A stretch of DNA of 63,530 bases from Flavobacteria bacterium RIFCSPLOWO2_12_FULL_35_11 (GTDB taxonomy: Bacteria > Bacteroidota > Bacteroidia > Flavobacteriales > Flavobacteriaceae), in assembly GCA_001800975.1 (NCBI GenBank), contig MGWK01000088.1, positions 1 through 63,530 of the forward strand, given 5' to 3'. The position numbers and the translations under genes are program-made. Positions 17,567 through 61,348 of the stretch are shown here, in pieces; within the stretch, counting starts at the first letter, position 1, and the number at the start of each line of letters is the position of its first letter. Under the pieces are notes generated by a model. It ran no database searches, was not told the DNA's origin, and saw only the letters and a list, made by a program, of their open reading frames with translations.

Positions 17567-18481
17567 TTAAATTAGCGGTATTTTCGATTTTTTACTGATT
17601 AAATAAACCCCCGCAACCACCAATAAACAGCTAAAAATTTTAACAAAACCGATGTCTTGCGCATATTCATCAAAATTTAGGACAAAAGCATAAATGGCGA
17701 CCATAATAAAACTGACGACGGGCTGCAAATAAATATAACTGCCGGTTACGGAAGGTGCCACTTTACTCAACGCATAAATATTAAAAAGGTAGGTTAAAAA
17801 GGTTGTTCCAAGCACAACAAACGTTATAGTTAGGTAGGTATGTGTTGTAAAAGCCGCAAAATCTGTACTTAACAAATCGGTGATGCCTACGGGAAACATA
17901 AACAGAAATCCGAATAAAAATGCCCAGCTGACGATGGTAATCGGGTTGTATTTTTTCATCAATGGTTTCACCAAAACCAAATATAAGGCATAGGTGCTGG
18001 TGTTTATAAAAACAAATAAATTACCTAAAACTGAACTGGTTCCGCCGACTTTTTTCCCATATAAAATTAAAATAACTGCGCCAATAGCTCCAAGTGTGAT
18101 GCCAATAAGTTTAATCAGCGTAATTCTTTCTTTCAAAATAAAAGCGCTAAAAACCAAAACCAATACGGGAACTGCAGTAATTATAATGGACGCATCTATT
18201 GGCGAGGTCAAACTTAAGCCGTTAAAGAAAAATAGCTGATTGGCGGCAACACCAAGCAATCCGCAGAGAATTAGCAACGGGAAATCCTTTTTGTCGATTT
18301 TTTCTTTGATAAAAGATTTGATCATCCAAAACAGCAATCCTGCCCCCAAAATTCTTAGAAAAACAAAAGCAGACGGCCCAATTTTATTGGGCATCACACC
18401 TTTTGCCACAATATGGTTGATTCCATAAATAATGTTGGCGCCAAGCAAGGCCAAATGCGCTTTGTAGTTGGATTTGTTCAT
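17567..18481 (-). CDS. EamA-family (DMT) transporter
   Basis: This 304-residue inner-membrane protein has about ten helices in two EamA repeats (about 7-137 and 152-292). Repeat landmarks include NIIYGINHIVAKGV, GLSLTSPIDASIIITAVPVLV and APSVTGSYIYLQPVV. The family exports amino acids, metabolites or drugs. The substrate is unknown, and the neighbours give no hint. Confidence 0.88.
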   Translation of the reverse strand: MNKSNYKAHLALLGANIIYGINHIVAKGVMPNKIGPSAFVFLRILGAGLLFWMIKSFIKEKIDKKDFPLLILCGLLGVAANQLFFFNGLSLTSPIDASIIITAVPVLVLVFSAFILKERITLIKLIGITLGAIGAVILILYGKKVGGTSSVLGNLFVFINTSTYALYLVLVKPLMKKYNPITIVSWAFLFGFLFMFPVGITDLLSTDFAAFTTHTYLTITFVVLGTTFLTYLFNIYALSKVAPSVTGSYIYLQPVVSFIMVAIYAFVLNFDEYAQDIGFVKIFSCLLVVAGVYLISKKSKIPLI

Positions 18482-18615
18482 TTGCTTTTATTGAATGAAA
18501 GTCGAAATTTACCTATTTTCCGGAAAATAAACTGGTACTATTTAATCATTTAATCCTATTTAAAATCCGGGGCGATTTATTCAAAACAAACATTTTACAG
18601 TTTTCTAGATAAAAC

Positions 18616-18626
18616 GTAACTTCGCA
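18616..18626 (+). promoter_or_regulatory. Candidate -7 region of leuS
   Basis: GTAACTTCGCA contains TAnnTTcG, a one-base variant of the -7 box. The same motif with one change (GTAATTTCGCA) precedes ileS at 28893, at nearly the same distance from the start. Confidence 0.4.
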
Positions 18627-18648
18627 TCTTTAGAAATGGAATAGCAGC

Positions 18649-21600
18649 ATGGAATATAATTTTAGAAAGATAGAAGCAGATTGGCAAAAGTATTGGGCGG
18701 AAAACCAAACGTTTAAAGCCGAAAACAATTCAACCAAACCAAAATATTACGTATTGGATATGTTTCCGTATCCGTCGGGTGCCGGTTTGCACGTTGGCCA
18801 TCCGCTCGGCTACATCGCTTCCGATATTTATGCACGCTACAAACGCCACAAAGGTTTTAATGTTTTGCATCCACAAGGCTACGATTCTTTCGGATTGCCG
18901 GCCGAGCAATATGCCATTCAAACCGGTCAACATCCTGCAATTACCACGGAAGAAAATATAAAAACCTACCGAAAACAATTGGATCAAATTGGATTTTCAT
19001 TCGACTGGTCGCGTGAAGTCCGCACTTCCGATCCCAATTATTATAAATGGACACAGTGGATTTTCATTCAACTGTTCAATTCCTGGTACCATAAAACAAC
19101 TGATAAAGCTGAGGATATTTCAACCTTAATTTCCATTTTTTCTGCGGAAGGAAACAGCAAGGTAAAAGCTGCTTGTGATGACACTATCGAAAAATTTTCT
19201 GCGGATGATTGGAAAAACTTTTCCGAAGAAAAACAACAAAAAATATTGTTGCAATACCGATTGACTTTCTTGTCGGAAACCGAGGTAAACTGGTGTCCGG
19301 GCTTGGGAACGGTATTGGCAAATGATGAAATTGTGAACGGCGTTTCCGAACGCGGAGGCCATCAGGTTATTCGTAAAAAAATGATGCAGTGGAGTATGCG
19401 AATCACCGCTTACGCACAACGATTGTTGGACGGATTGGCAAAAATAGACTGGCCGCAACCGCTAAAAGATTCACAAACGTATTGGATTGGCAAAAGTGAA
19501 GGTGCGATGGTTTCGTTCAAAGTCCTATCCCCAGCCCTTTCCGAAGGAAAGGGAGCAAGAGATTCGGGATATTTAACAGGAAATCAAGATATAGCTCATG
19601 TTTTATTGGAAAGGGCCAAAGAAATGAGAGTTAACCCTACGCAAGCAGAAGCATTTCTTTGGGAGCAACTGAAAAGCAAAAAATTAGATATAAAATTTAG
19701 GCAGCAGCACTTAATAGATGATTTTATTGTGGATTTTGTGTGTTTGTCTAAACGATTAATCATTGAGGTTGATGGCAAAATTCACGAATCTCAGATAGAA
19801 AAAGATTTTGAAAGAACTAAAATCCTTGAAAATAAGGGATATAAAGTAATTCGATTTACAAATGAGGAAGTCATTGGGAATATTGATGAAATTGTTTCAA
19901 AAATTATAATAGAACTAGAAAAACGTCCAACCCTTTCTGAAGGAAAGGGAACCAACGAGAACATTGAAGTCCTTCCCTTAGGGAAGGATTTAGGATGGGA
20001 GATTCCTGTTTTCACCACGCGTCCCGACACCATTTTCGGCGTAAGTTTTATGACTTTGGCACCTGAGCACGATTTAGTTCCGATAATTACTACACCTGAG
20101 CAAAAAGCAGCGGTGGAAGCTTATATAAAATCGACCGCAAAACGCAGTGAATTGGAACGCATGGCAGATGTAAAAACCATTTCCGGCGTATTTACAGGCG
20201 CGTATGCCTTGCATCCGTTTTTGGGTAAAAAGATCCCAATTTGGATTGGCGATTATGTGTTGGCAGGTTACGGAACCGGTGCTGTGATGGCAGTTCCTTG
20301 CGGCGATCAGCGCGATTACGATTTTGCAAAACATTTCAACCTTGAAATTCCGAATATTTTTGAAGGTGTCGATATTTCCGAAGGTGCTTATACCGATAAG
20401 GAGAATTCTGTAATTGCGAATTCCGATTTTTTGAACGGGTTGCCTTACAAAAAAGCATTGAAACGCATTATTGACGAAACAGAGCAACTTGGCTTTGGGT
20501 ACGGAAAAGTAAATTACCGCTTGCGCGACGCCGTTTTTAGCCGTCAGCGTTATTGGGGAGAACCATTTCCTGTGTATTACAAAAATGGTTTGCCGCAAAT
20601 GATTGATTTAAAATATTTGCCAATTGTGTTGCCCGAAGTAGAGAAATATTTGCCAACGGAAGACGGAAAACCGCCTTTGGGAAATGCAACGGTTTGGGCT
20701 TGGGATACTGAAAAGTCGGCAGTTGTCAGCAATCAGTTGATTGATCATAAAACCATTTTTCCGTTAGAATTAAACACCATGCCGGGTTGGGCGGGAAGTT
20801 CCTCCTATTTTAACCGGTATATGGATCCGCATAATGCCGAAGAATTTGTAAGCGAAGATGCGGTTAATTATTGGCAGGATGTTGATTTATACATTGGAGG
20901 CAGCGAACACGCAACCGGACATTTATTGTATTCCCGTTTTTGGCAAAAATTTCTGTTCGACAAAGGCATTGTTCCTGTTGATGAATATGCGAAAAAGCTG
21001 ATTAATCAGGGAATGATTTCCGGAACAAGTGCTTTTATTTATAAATTGACACCATGGCTTATTGGAGAACTTTTTGGAATGGAAACTCATGAAACTATTT
21101 TATTTCCTCCAAAAGTCTTGTCAAAAAATATATTCAATCAAGAAATTAATAAGACTTTTATTGATGAAAATTTCGAAAATCAATTTTTAAATGACCTAAA
21201 AGAAGAAATATCGGAAAACACACTACAAAAGATAGAAAGCATTTTTGGTAAAAATTATAACGTTTTAAATAGTTATGAATCATCAGGAATAAGTGGGGTA
21301 ATAAATTATTTGACAGGAAAAATAGAATTTAGTATCAACCTAATTCATGCAGATGTTTCTTTGGTAAACGCTGCTGACGAATTGGATGTGGAAGCTTTTA
21401 AAAAGTGGCGGCCAGAATATAAAAATGCGAAATTTATTTTGGGAGACGGAAAATATATTGTTGGCCGCGAAGTAGAAAAAATGTCGAAATCCAAATACAA
21501 TGTGGTGAATCCGGACAAGATTTGTGAGGAATATGGCGCCGACAGTTTAAGGATGTTCGAAATGTTTTTAGGTCCGCTGGAACAGTCAAAACCTTGGAAA

Positions 21601-22158
21601 ACTTCAGGAATATCCGGAGTGCTTAGTTTTTTAAAGAAATTATGGAAACTGTACATTGTGGAGAATAAATTTTCTGTATCAGAAGAAAATCCATCAAAAG
21701 AGGAGTTTAAAATTCTGCACAAAACCATCAAAAAAGTGGAAGAGGATATTGAAAATTTCTCTTTCAACACTTCGGTTTCAACCTTTATGATTGCGGTAAA
21801 CGAATTAACCGCCTTAAAATGCAATAAACGTGCAATTTTAGAGCCAATGGCCATTCTTTTGGAACCTTATGCGCCGCACATTTCAGAAGAATTGTGGAAG
21901 AATTTAGGACATAAAACATCGGTTTCTAAAGTTGATTTTCCCCTATTTGAAGCAGCACATTTGGTTGAAAGCATGAAGGAATATCCGGTTTCATTCAACG
22001 GTAAAATGCGATTTAAAATTGAATTGCCATTGGATTTAACCGTAAAAGAAATTGAAGATGCGGTAATGGCCCATGAAAAAACACAAGAGCAATTGCAAGG
22101 ACGCTTACCTAATAAAGTAATTATCGTTCCGGGGAAAATTATAAATATTGTTGGGTAA
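18649..22158 (+). CDS. leuS: Leucyl-tRNA synthetase with inserted DUF559 endonuclease domain
   Basis: This class I synthetase charges tRNA-Leu. It is 1169 residues long, about 230 more than the roughly 930 I expect for this phylum. The catalytic motifs are HVGH (FPYPSGAGLHVGHPLG) and KMSKS (EKMSKSKYNVVNPD), and the editing-domain motif TTRPDTIFGVSFM is intact. Two insertions explain the extra length. Residues 292-450 form an in-frame palindromic element carrying a DUF559/Vsr-like nuclease domain at the entry to the CP1 editing domain. About residues 797-898 (LTPWLIGELFGM to TGKIEFSINL) replace a normally short loop before HADVSLVN. The frame is intact throughout, so the gene is expected to be functional since it is essential. 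Confidence 0.95.
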   Translation: MEYNFRKIEADWQKYWAENQTFKAENNSTKPKYYVLDMFPYPSGAGLHVGHPLGYIASDIYARYKRHKGFNVLHPQGYDSFGLPAEQYAIQTGQHPAITTEENIKTYRKQLDQIGFSFDWSREVRTSDPNYYKWTQWIFIQLFNSWYHKTTDKAEDISTLISIFSAEGNSKVKAACDDTIEKFSADDWKNFSEEKQQKILLQYRLTFLSETEVNWCPGLGTVLANDEIVNGVSERGGHQVIRKKMMQWSMRITAYAQRLLDGLAKIDWPQPLKDSQTYWIGKSEGAMVSFKVLSPALSEGKGARDSGYLTGNQDIAHVLLERAKEMRVNPTQAEAFLWEQLKSKKLDIKFRQQHLIDDFIVDFVCLSKRLIIEVDGKIHESQIEKDFERTKILENKGYKVIRFTNEEVIGNIDEIVSKIIIELEKRPTLSEGKGTNENIEVLPLGKDLGWEIPVFTTRPDTIFGVSFMTLAPEHDLVPIITTPEQKAAVEAYIKSTAKRSELERMADVKTISGVFTGAYALHPFLGKKIPIWIGDYVLAGYGTGAVMAVPCGDQRDYDFAKHFNLEIPNIFEGVDISEGAYTDKENSVIANSDFLNGLPYKKALKRIIDETEQLGFGYGKVNYRLRDAVFSRQRYWGEPFPVYYKNGLPQMIDLKYLPIVLPEVEKYLPTEDGKPPLGNATVWAWDTEKSAVVSNQLIDHKTIFPLELNTMPGWAGSSSYFNRYMDPHNAEEFVSEDAVNYWQDVDLYIGGSEHATGHLLYSRFWQKFLFDKGIVPVDEYAKKLINQGMISGTSAFIYKLTPWLIGELFGMETHETILFPPKVLSKNIFNQEINKTFIDENFENQFLNDLKEEISENTLQKIESIFGKNYNVLNSYESSGISGVINYLTGKIEFSINLIHADVSLVNAADELDVEAFKKWRPEYKNAKFILGDGKYIVGREVEKMSKSKYNVVNPDKICEEYGADSLRMFEMFLGPLEQSKPWKTSGISGVLSFLKKLWKLYIVENKFSVSEENPSKEEFKILHKTIKKVEEDIENFSFNTSVSTFMIAVNELTALKCNKRAILEPMAILLEPYAPHISEELWKNLGHKTSVSKVDFPLFEAAHLVESMKEYPVSFNGKMRFKIELPLDLTVKEIEDAVMAHEKTQEQLQGRLPNKVIIVPGKIINIVG
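19522..19998 (+). mobile_element. In-frame palindromic element with DUF559 nuclease cassette inside leuS
   Basis: This 477-nt (159-codon) element is bounded by VLSPALSEGKG and PLGKDLGW at the protein level. Its left hairpin (CCCTTTCC-GAA-GGAAAGGG, 19535-19553) is repeated at 19931-19949 with one change, exactly 396 nt (132 codons) later. A third palindrome, CCTTCCCT-T-AGGGAAGG, is at 19971-19987. Between the two hairpin copies lies a DUF559/very-short-patch-repair-like nuclease domain (protein residues about 318-424), with NPTQAEAFLWEQL, KFRQQHLIDDFIVDFVC, LIIEVDGKIH and GYKVIRFTNEEV. All expected catalytic residues are present. The outer parts match the 84-nt element in ileS. Confidence 0.85.
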
Positions 22159-22188
22159 AACCCAAAATTTCAAACCAAACCAAATAAA

Positions 22189-22446
22189 ATGATAGACAAC
22201 TTTGAAATTATAGGATTGATAGCCGGCGTTTTAACAACATCGGCTTTTGTGCCGCAAGTGTATAAAACATGGAAATCAAAATCGGCCGAAAGTTTGTCGT
22301 TAACCATGTATTTGGTGTTTTTTATAGGCATTATTTTGTGGTTGGTTTATGGAATCCACATTAAAAGTTTGGCCATGATTTTTGCAAATGCGGTTACTGG
22401 TTTTTTGGCGCTGTTGCTTATTTTTTTCAAACTGCGCTATAAATAA
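22189..22446 (+). CDS. SemiSWEET-type sugar transporter
   Basis: This 85-residue membrane protein has three helices forming one triple-helix (PQ-loop/MtN3) unit, with the signature TTSAFVPQVYKTWKSKSAESLS (PQ motif in helix 1) and a conserved Trp/Asn pair (ILWLVYG, FANAV). SemiSWEETs dimerise to move sugars down their gradient. It lies 30 bp after leuS. Confidence 0.9.
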   Translation: MIDNFEIIGLIAGVLTTSAFVPQVYKTWKSKSAESLSLTMYLVFFIGIILWLVYGIHIKSLAMIFANAVTGFLALLLIFFKLRYK

Positions 22447-28927: not shown

Positions 28928-31900
28928 ATGAGCAAAAAATTTAGAGAATATAAAGGATTGGACCTCACCAAAGTAGCAGAAGAGACTTTGGCATTTTGGG
29001 AAGCGGAACATATTTTCGAAAAAAGCATTAGCACACGAGACGAGAATAAATCATTTGTATTTTATGAAGGACCGCCATCTGCAAACGGATTGCCGGGAAT
29101 TCACCATGTGATGGCCCGTGCCATAAAAGATATTTTTTGCCGTTACAAAACCCTTAAGGGTTTTCAGGTAAAACGAAAAGCTGGCTGGGATACGCACGGA
29201 TTGCCAATTGAATTGGGTGTTGAAAAAGAACTGGGAATTACCAAAGAAGATATTGGCAAAAAAATTTCTGTAGAAGAATATAACGAAGCTTGTAAAAATG
29301 CCGTAATGCGCTATACCTATGTTTGGAATGATTTAACCAAACGCATTGGCTATTGGGTAGATATGGAAGATCCTTACGTGACCTACAAACCAAAATACAT
29401 GGAAACGGTTTGGTGGTTGTTGGCCCAATTGTACAAAAAAGGATTGATTTACAAAGGATATACCATTCAGCCTTATTCGCCAAAAGCGGGTACGGGTTTG
29501 AGTTCACACGAATTAAACCAGCCGGGAACTTATCAGGATATTACAGATACCACGGTTGTTGCGCAATTTAAAGTCCTATCCCCAGCCCTTTCCGAAGGAA
29601 AGGGAGTTTCAAAACAGGATTTAAAAGTAAATCCCTTTGGGAAGGATTTAGGATGGGACAATACTTACTTCTTGGCATGGACAACAACGCCTTGGACATT
29701 GCCATCAAACACAGCGCTTACGGTTGGAAAAAAGATTGATTACGTTTTGGTTTCCACTTTTAACCAGTACACCTTTGAGCCTATCAACGTAATTTTGGCT
29801 AAAGCATTGGTTGGGAAGCAATTTTCGGGCAAATTTTTTGCTGTTGAAAATGAGTCTCAACTTTCTGATTACAGCGAAAACGACAAAAAGATTCCTTATT
29901 TTATTGTTGGAGAATGTAAAGGAGCCGATTTGGTTGAATTTAGATATGAGCAATTGATGCCTTACGCGCTTCCTTATAAAAATCCGGAAAATGCTTTTAG
30001 GGTCATTGCCGGTGATTTCGTGACTACCGAAGACGGTACAGGAATTGTGCACACTGCGCCAACTTTTGGGGCAGATGATGCGATGGTTGCAAAACAGGCT
30101 TCGCCTGAAGTGCCGCCAATGTTGGTGTTGGACGATAACGGGAATCCGGTTCCTTTGGTTGATTTACAAGGAAGATTCACCAAACATATGGGAGAATATG
30201 CAGGGAAATACGTAAAAAACGAATATTATGAAGACGGAGAAGCGCCAGAGCGCTCTTTGGATGTGGAAATTGCCATTCAATTAAAAGAAGAAAACAAAGC
30301 GTTCAACGTAGAAAAATACAAACACAGTTATCCACATTGCTGGCGAACCGACAAACCGGTTTTATACTATCCGCTGGATTCCTGGTTTATAAAAGTGACC
30401 GACAAGCGCGATCGCATGTTCGATTTGAACAATACCATTAACTGGAAACCAAAATCAACCGGTGAAGGCCGATTTGGCAACTGGCTGAAAAATGCCAACG
30501 ACTGGAACTTATCACGTTCCCGTTACTGGGGAATTCCTTTGCCAATTTGGAGAACGGAAGACGGAACAGAGGAAATTTTTATTGGCTCGGTTGAAGAATT
30601 GATGAATGAAATGAAAAAATCGGTAGCCGCCGGACATATGAAAGCCGCTATTTTTGCTGATTTTGAAGTGGGAAATATGAGCGAAGAAAACTATGATAAA
30701 ATCGACTTGCATAAAAATGTGGTTGATGCAATTGTCTTGGTTTCAGCTTCGGGAAAACCAATGAAACGCGAAGCAGATTTGATTGATGTTTGGTTTGATT
30801 CTGGCTCTATGCCTTATGCACAATGGCATTATCCGTTCGAAAATAAAGATTTAATAGACAATAATAAATTCTTTCCGGCCGATTTTATTGCGGAAGGTGT
30901 TGACCAAACAAGAGGTTGGTTTTATACGCTTCATGCAATTTCAACCATGGTTTTTGATTCCGTTGCGTATAAAAATGTGGTTTCAAACGGATTGGTGCTG
31001 GACAAAGACGGCAAAAAAATGTCGAAACGTTTGGGAAATGCCGTTGACCCATTTGAAACGATGGACAAATATGGTGCAGATGCCACACGTTGGTACATGA
31101 TTGTAAATGCAAATCCGTGGGACAATTTAAAATTTGACTTGGAAGGAATTGATGAGGTTCGAAGAAAATTCTTCGGAACGCTTTACAATACGTATTCTTT
31201 CTTTTCATTGTATGCAAACTTGGATAATTTTTCCTATTCCGAAGAAGAAATTGCTTTGGATGAAAGACCTGAAATCGATCGTTGGATTTTATCCGAACTG
31301 AATACCTTGATAAAAAATACTGAAAGTTTTTATGAAGATTACGAGCCAACAAAAGCGGCGCGTGCCATTCAGGATTTTGTTTCAGAAAATTTAAGCAACT
31401 GGTTTGTGCGATTAAGCAGAAGACGTTTTTGGAAAGGCGATTACGAAAAAGACAAAGTTTCGGGCTATCAAACGCTTTATACCTGTCTTTTAACAGTGGC
31501 GAAATTGGGCGCGCCAATCGCACCGTTTTTTATGGACAATCTTTACAAAGATTTAACAAATGTTTCTTGTAAAGAAGCATTTGAATCAGTACATTTGGCG
31601 ACTTTTCCAATTTATGATAAAAGTTTAGTCGACAATAAGTTAGAGCACAAAATGCAACAGGCTCAAAAAATTGCCTCTATGGTTTTGTCATTGCGAAAAA
31701 AGGAAATGATTAAAGTGCGTCAGCCCTTGCAAAGAATTATGATTCCGGTGTTAAATGATGAAGAAAGGGAAGAAATTTTAGCGGTGGCCGATTTGATAAA
31801 ATCCGAAGTGAACGTTAAAGAAATTGAATTGATTGATGATGCTTCAGGAATCGTGGTAAAAACCATTAAACCAAATTTTAAGGTGTTGGGACCAAGGTTT

Positions 31901-61315: not shown

Positions 61316-61348
61316 TCCTATCCCCAACCCTTTCCCAAGGAAAGGGAG
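61316..61348. mobile_element. Half copy of the leuS/ileS palindromic element
   Basis: TCCTATCCCCAACCCTTTCC then CAAGGAAAGGGAG matches the left end of the synthetase elements with two differences. The right end (GGGAAGGATTTAGGATGGG) is missing. It lies in the convergent gap between the MutS-like gene and moaE. Confidence 0.75.

Follow-up and report, generated by a model that had tools for sequence, protein, structure and literature searches.

A DUF559 nuclease bracketed by REP palindromes within flavobacterial leucyl-tRNA synthetase: a probable homing-type selfish element

The leuS cassette and its nuclease

The leucyl-tRNA synthetase (LeuRS) gene of Flavobacteria bacterium RIFCSPLOWO2_12_FULL_35_11 (assembly GCA_001800975.1) lies on a stretch of 63,530 nucleotides of contig MGWK01000088.1, referred to here as the window, and is interrupted by an insert that encodes a nuclease. 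The host gene, leuS, consists of 1169 codons in one open frame on the forward strand (18649-22158) and is assigned by its match to the bacterial profile leuS_bact (TIGR00396, E 1e-254) and to Pfam profiles; it is the sole LeuRS match in the genome, both query matches falling on this gene. A reading made earlier from the sequence only had placed a nuclease-bearing cassette in frame inside LeuRS, and this holds: the cassette of about 478 bases (19523-20000, forward strand) is situated in frame, preceded by the CP1 entry strand (...SFKV) and followed by VFTTRPDT, and residues 321-423 match DUF559 (PF04480; E 1.8e-33, 115 bits against a cut-off of 20.6). The limits of the cassette, accurate to a few bases, were inferred from a related copy in ileS and from occupied and empty relatives.

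All parts of the cassette are given on the forward strand. It opens with a TCCTATCCCC tail and a hairpin at 19535-19553, which together form a repetitive extragenic palindrome (REP; 19523-19553), and continues with the DUF559 domain (19606-19917), a hairpin at 19931-19949 and, at 19970-19988, the third palindrome (TCCTTCCCTTAGGGAAGGA) with the tail ending TTTAGGATGGGA, which is the 3' end of the cassette; comparison of element ends identifies this last part as an inverted 3' REP (19970-20000). The hairpins at 19535-19553 and 19931-19949 were recovered by pattern search at the expected spacing of 396 nt, but of the two, which the sequence-only reading took to flank the nuclease, only the first is an end of the element, the true 3' end being the palindrome at 19970-19988. 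Nor is the hairpin at 19931 a duplication made on insertion, as had been proposed, because it is an internal extra that is absent from other occupied LeuRS genes (e.g. L034, L035 and L045). The two ends of the element appear to be REPs of one type turned in opposite directions, and in our reading the stem differences between them are paired (CCCTTTCC/GGAAAGGG and TCCTTCCC/GGGAAGGA). Paired changes also occur in the 5' stem among occupied LeuRS genes: the covariation score was reached by 0 of 500 shuffles in alignment A4 (23 sequences) and, more weakly, by 22 of 500 in alignment A5 (22 sequences), counts that are not probabilities, the sequences being related. At L325/L204 and L324/L200, other small repeats have apparently been inserted in frame inside the 5' REP hairpin, in a nested arrangement.

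Both in sequence and in predicted fold the nuclease corresponds to I-Bth0305I (PDB 3r3p), an EDxHD homing endonuclease, the predicted structure resembling the I-Bth0305I catalytic domain and Vsr. Its conserved residues are, in LeuRS numbering, Q353, D362, E373, D375, H379 and D386, and we read E373, D375, H379 and D386 as the putative EDxHD motif. The six positions agree in 108 or 109 of 109 domains, in-host and standalone alike, a count from which two hairpin-less LeuRS copies (L080 and L082) had been set aside beforehand. The copy in the window LeuRS has all of these conserved residues.

Occupancy, decay and constraint among relatives

A flank-joined LeuRS query found a match in 198 of 199 genomes of the family. 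In 37 genomes the match was split in two, as a large insert would cause, and in 21 of these DUF559 lies in the LeuRS frame. The remaining 177 of the 198 genes lack it; presence in nearly all related LeuRS, by which the sequence-only reading would have recognised a native domain, is thus not observed. The other 16 split-match genes have 22-49 residues where empty genes have 14, and several of these short inserts are translated small palindromes of other families. Among 46 DUF559-less loci that were compared, 20 carry 16-49 residues instead of 14 (16 of the 20 were fetched because of their split match). Given the many different inserts that it holds, the loop is an insertion-tolerant site. Other kinds of short palindrome, such as GTCATTGCGAGTGAAACGAAGCAATCT and CATTCCGAACTTGATTCGGAATCT, are translated in frame in the CP1 loop of LeuRS at L083, L084, L107 and L113-L128.

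Within the genus LeuRS was matched in 35 of 38 genomes, and 30 were examined; no locus was obtained for G579, G584, G585, G590 and G594, the first three of which probably carry an insert, judging from their split LeuRS matches. The analysis covered these 30 genomes and L202, with four duplicate records removed. Fourteen of the 30 are empty, four have a short insert, six carry an intact element and six a decayed nuclease without REPs, i.e. 12 of the 30 LeuRS genes contain DUF559. The Lutibacter records L200 and L201 have insert ends identical to those of the genus members L324 and L323, which makes Lutibacter the probable genus. On a 31-row genus LeuRS tree the presence of DUF559 needs 12 changes (six forced by well-supported branches), no fewer than with shuffled labels (mean 10.1), and is thus scattered as if at random. 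The 66-row family tree needs 13 changes (nine forced) compared with a shuffled mean of 17.4, and since only nine of 500 shuffles were as low, there is some clustering at family depth. This tree and the comparison that yielded the 46 DUF559-less loci include 20 of the 21 DUF559 rows, L036 being missed as a motif variant, and the 26 empty loci of the tree are among the 30 best-scoring of 198 rather than a random sample. The closest contrast is with G578, whose LeuRS is 98% identical over 420 residues and empty; in G578 the two flanks join as TTCAAA-ATTCCT behind a short tandem repeat, and we read this junction as the apparent scar of a deletion. A patchy distribution at a single conserved site, as seen here, is characteristic of homing elements.

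The two states of the nuclease differ in constraint. Q353, D375 and H379 are lost in all six decayed copies of the genus, as they are in L080 and L082. The median ratio of nonsynonymous to synonymous substitution (dN/dS) is 0.10 for the intact genus domains (host 0.05) and 0.34 for the decayed ones (host 0.105), each figure resting on six sequences and 15 pairs that are not independent. Sequence comparison thus indicates an intact, constrained nuclease in the REP-bearing copies, and lost catalytic residues with weaker constraint in the REP-less ones; such a contrast would be the pattern expected of a selfish nuclease that is kept by turnover.

REP palindromes and further hosts of DUF559

REPs and REPINs are GC-rich palindromes scattered through a genome; they carry a conserved tail, form inverted pairs and lie beside a DNA-cutting enzyme, the REP-associated tyrosine transposase (RAYT), which belongs to the HUH type. 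The palindromes of the cassette are likewise dispersed, paired and tailed. With up to three mismatches their pattern has seven matches in the window against 0.05 expected, corresponding to four places, some counted on both strands; with up to two mismatches it has 33 matches in the genome (16 forward and 17 reverse, again with some places on both strands) against none for a reversed-pattern control. Of 28 genomic loci examined, 22 have the tail in common, and only leuS, ileS and, uncertainly, L014 place the REP inside an open frame of at least 250 codons. The copy in ileS (29574-29658, forward strand) is a nuclease-less version of 85 bases about 10 kb downstream of leuS, with two REPs that face each other, and it lies in frame in a gene confirmed by the profile TIGR00392 (E 1e-299). 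It has the same ends as the leuS element (TCCTATCCCC ... GGATTTAGGATGGGA), these ends pair with each other in the predicted fold, and the insertion flanks are nearly alike (TTTAAAG in ileS, TTCAAAG in leuS). A single REP of the same family, recognised by the palindrome pattern, is intergenic (61316-61346, forward strand).

In-frame palindromic inserts thus occur in leuS and ileS in the window and, elsewhere in the genome, in metH, where a second DUF559 is bracketed by exact inverted REPs of another family (21 genome matches to the metH-type pattern, none to the control). The combination of hairpin and nuclease, whose confinement to leuS would by the sequence-only reading have refuted a selfish element, recurs at many other genome locations. 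DUF559 has a match in 101 of the 199 family genomes, weak Vsr-like matches included, and 42 of the 111 domains analysed share the reading frame of a host protein: LeuRS (21), MetH (7), HemD (7), RecG (6) and HisD (1). Additional scans of named genomes and of the phylum (match in 222 of 392 genomes), some of which overlap the family set, added 105 open frames, namely 51 in LeuRS, eight in MetH, one in RecG, 30 in other long frames and 15 alone. The other long frames include, according to Pfam, IleRS, a UvrD-type helicase, RecJ, UvrC, PurL, acetyl-CoA synthetase, CoA transferase and KsgA, as well as five kinds of restriction-modification protein, in which the nuclease may simply be fused in the ordinary way and not inserted; one frame (L283) showed DUF559 only, and the host proteins of L280-L284 are cut by locus ends. 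Counting LeuRS, MetH, RecG, HemD and HisD, DUF559 has so far been encountered in frame in 18 protein families, a number that speaks of breadth and not of frequency, as these hosts were found via the nuclease. The domain is N-terminal in HemD, and C-terminal in HisD, KsgA and one PurL (L299). It also occupies further sites or interrupts Pfam domains in IleRS (L246, L261), MetH (L255, L277) and RecJ (L266), splitting the DHH domain of RecJ and the activation domain of MetH.

The domain tree reveals site-specific lineages: there is one clade each for the copies in MetH, RecG and HemD, and all but two of the 21 LeuRS copies fall into one weakly supported group of 19 (64/44). Of these two, L063 is placed next to MetH and L066 stands separately. 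A domain tree of 139 rows agrees, LeuRS requiring six changes against a shuffled mean of 46. In the metH of genome G183 there are two DUF559 copies that are sisters in the domain tree, and they align closely between AGCCCCCC and GGGGGGCT, the similarity stopping at both ends; the unit that moved was therefore REP-DUF559-REP. Two further pairs of equal-scoring DUF559 matches a few kilobases apart (G572:C1:330877 / 334128 and G064:C2:234561 / 235953) are perhaps recent duplicates.

Hairpins also accompany DUF559 genes outside host proteins. Stems of at least 8 flank standalone genes on both sides in 28 of 68 cases, and of at least 7 in 42 of 68; among 255 control positions within these loci the counts are 0 and 1, respectively. 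The corresponding figures for in-host copies are 8 and 14 of 42, many with 5-base G/C stems. Direct repeats common to the left and right flanks reach a score of at least 16 in 46 of the 68 standalone genes. The flanks of in-host copies are not generally clear as inverted repeats (score at least 16 in 8 of 42, compared with 17 of 210 swapped controls).

Probable homing and the competing explanations

The cassette is probably a mobile selfish element of the homing type, REP-DUF559-REP, residing in a translated loop, spread by its nuclease and subject to later decay. The unit would consist of two REP palindromes, tails outward, that bracket an EDxHD homing-type nuclease. Because the palindromes can be translated in the frame of the host, the element could settle in an essential protein at a surface loop that tolerates it; the nuclease would then be made as an additional domain on a flexible tether, with neither intron nor intein. 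The fused LeuRS would be the source of the nuclease, which would cut leuS alleles that lack the element at the cognate site and so drive the spread, repair from the occupied allele copying the element in; the REPs would be recognised in the process, and the whole unit would occasionally move to a new site. Once a population is filled, the nuclease would decay, catalytic residues and REPs being lost while the frame is kept, and the decayed insert would eventually be deleted. That leuS is the single LeuRS gene of the genome suggests that the enzyme keeps working with the insert, as readable REPs and a loop tolerant of extra length would allow. Thus the overall interpretation of the sequence-only reading, a selfish, homing-like and translation-compatible element in a tolerant loop, is supported, apart from the hairpin duplication on insertion.

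Several observations weigh against this picture. A co-conversion tract adjoining the leuS site was looked for and none is visible, and on either side the gene remains similar to its empty relative as far as the site itself; because no such tract is seen, homing is not fully separated from ordinary allele exchange. In neither of the two best pairs is the divergence of the whole insert significantly below that of the flanks (p 0.067 and 0.11); the former is the L323-L324 pair, whose low domain dS (0.10, host 0.37) is not relied on. Ordinary allele exchange or loss must contribute to the patchiness in LeuRS, because the decayed REP-less copies are as scattered as the intact ones. The fold models are of moderate quality (mean pLDDT 71 and 72.5), and a REP family tied to one DUF559 clade is also found in 16 of 191 genomes in which no cognate nuclease was detected.

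The lack of a conversion tract and the scatter of decayed copies are what one would expect if palindromes and nuclease gene had simply entered a tolerant loop as passengers, their patchiness arising by loss and homologous exchange of leuS without any drive; the many unrelated small inserts in the same loop and the weak correlation between domain and host pairwise divergence (rho 0.25-0.39) fit this as well. We consider it unlikely, given that the nuclease is under stronger constraint where the REPs are intact, that the whole unit was duplicated to a second metH site, and that in-frame copies occur in many unrelated proteins. Somewhat less improbable, though still doubtful, is that DUF559 acts genome-wide on REP hairpins, much as the RAYT transposase is thought to act on its own REPs, the in-protein copies being tolerated by-products. 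The paired hairpins and direct repeats around standalone genes and the dispersal of leuS-type REPs in this genome agree with such an activity, as does the GTCCCCTNNAGGGGAC palindrome, which occurs in all eight genomes with one DUF559 clade (as defined by the domain tree) and in 16 of 191 others. Much of this co-occurrence consists of copies beside the nuclease itself, though, and at six or more copies the figures are two of eight against three of 191 (p 0.013); leuS-type REPs outside leuS are present in two of 21 against two of 178 genomes (p 0.056), so that the joint occurrence of a REP family and its nuclease is no more than suggestive. The host-specific lineages argue for site fidelity and against free movement.

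That DUF559 is a native or domesticated accessory domain with a new function for LeuRS is very improbable. The frame is kept and decayed copies persist in six of the 30 genus members; yet the family occupancy and the genus data rule out a native domain, the site being empty in a LeuRS of 98% identity and the same domain recurring in many unrelated proteins. An intein or self-splicing intron has a smaller chance still: such homing endonucleases are known from mobile introns, and the entry 3r3p is, by its title, a 'Mobile intron protein', but there is no Rfam family at E <= 1 over 18400-22300, and Pfam and NCBIfam report no intein domain in the window LeuRS, in line with the lack of splicing motifs in the sequence-only reading; this speaks against both. 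Moreover, the 21 DUF559-bearing and 16 short-insert LeuRS genes all keep an open frame, which counts against an intron because a spliced-out RNA needs no frame.

Set beside known systems, the homing-type element that we favour combines familiar parts. It resembles REP/RAYT in its inverted pairs of tailed palindromes beside a DNA-cutting enzyme, the bracketed enzyme here being a Vsr-like nuclease instead of an HUH transposase. In fungal mitochondria LAGLIDADG genes are inserted in rps3, and there too a homing endonuclease frame is lodged directly in a protein gene, although the nuclease family is different, the setting is an organelle and palindromic ends are not known there. The EDxHD homing endonucleases such as I-Bth0305I have the same fold and ED..H..D residues and, as far as the available descriptions extend, occur in introns, in inteins or free-standing; here, by contrast, the host enzyme carries the nuclease in its own frame, between REPs, and nothing points to splicing. 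One report places a DUF559 gene in the EDxHD family (PMC9403480). Rickettsia palindromic elements are described as small palindromes in frame inside unrelated protein genes, a similar placement; they measure about 150 bp and have an ORF for a conserved peptide, and the passages on them mention no nuclease (PMC10969869). Searches of openly licensed papers yielded no description of a DUF559 nuclease combined with in-frame REP palindromes, and going by these sources, each component is already known while the combination is apparently undescribed.

It is quite possible, though we put it forward tentatively, that this is a class of bacterial elements absent from the papers searched, in which REPs are mobilised by an EDxHD/DUF559 nuclease, with translatable palindromes, homing into essential proteins without splicing and nuclease-less REP satellites that spread through the genome. 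The hosts of such a class might comprise synthetases, MetH, RecG, UvrC, RecJ and PurL, with the element perhaps staying in the finished enzymes. A homing-type nuclease seems to manage, in many proteins, with no more than a tolerant loop and palindromes that can be translated; this would provide the REP palindromes of Bacteroidota with a candidate mobiliser and DUF559 with a function. Because empty, short-insert, intact and decayed states all exist within one genus, the cycle of gain, decay and loss is directly open to study.

Two minor observations concern related settings. At L081 (G109:C1:236312-236512, minus strand) what appears to be an intein (CFTAW...VVVHNC in our reading) holds a DUF559-related nuclease, a classical intein home of the same nuclease family. 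Further downstream in the window leuS, 21034-21340 is a second in-frame block of about 100 residues (YKLTPWLIGELF...), without an NCBIfam match and at a position poorly conserved in the LeuRS alignment; among seven close genus relatives whose loci reach that far, one (L325) has a match that covers it.
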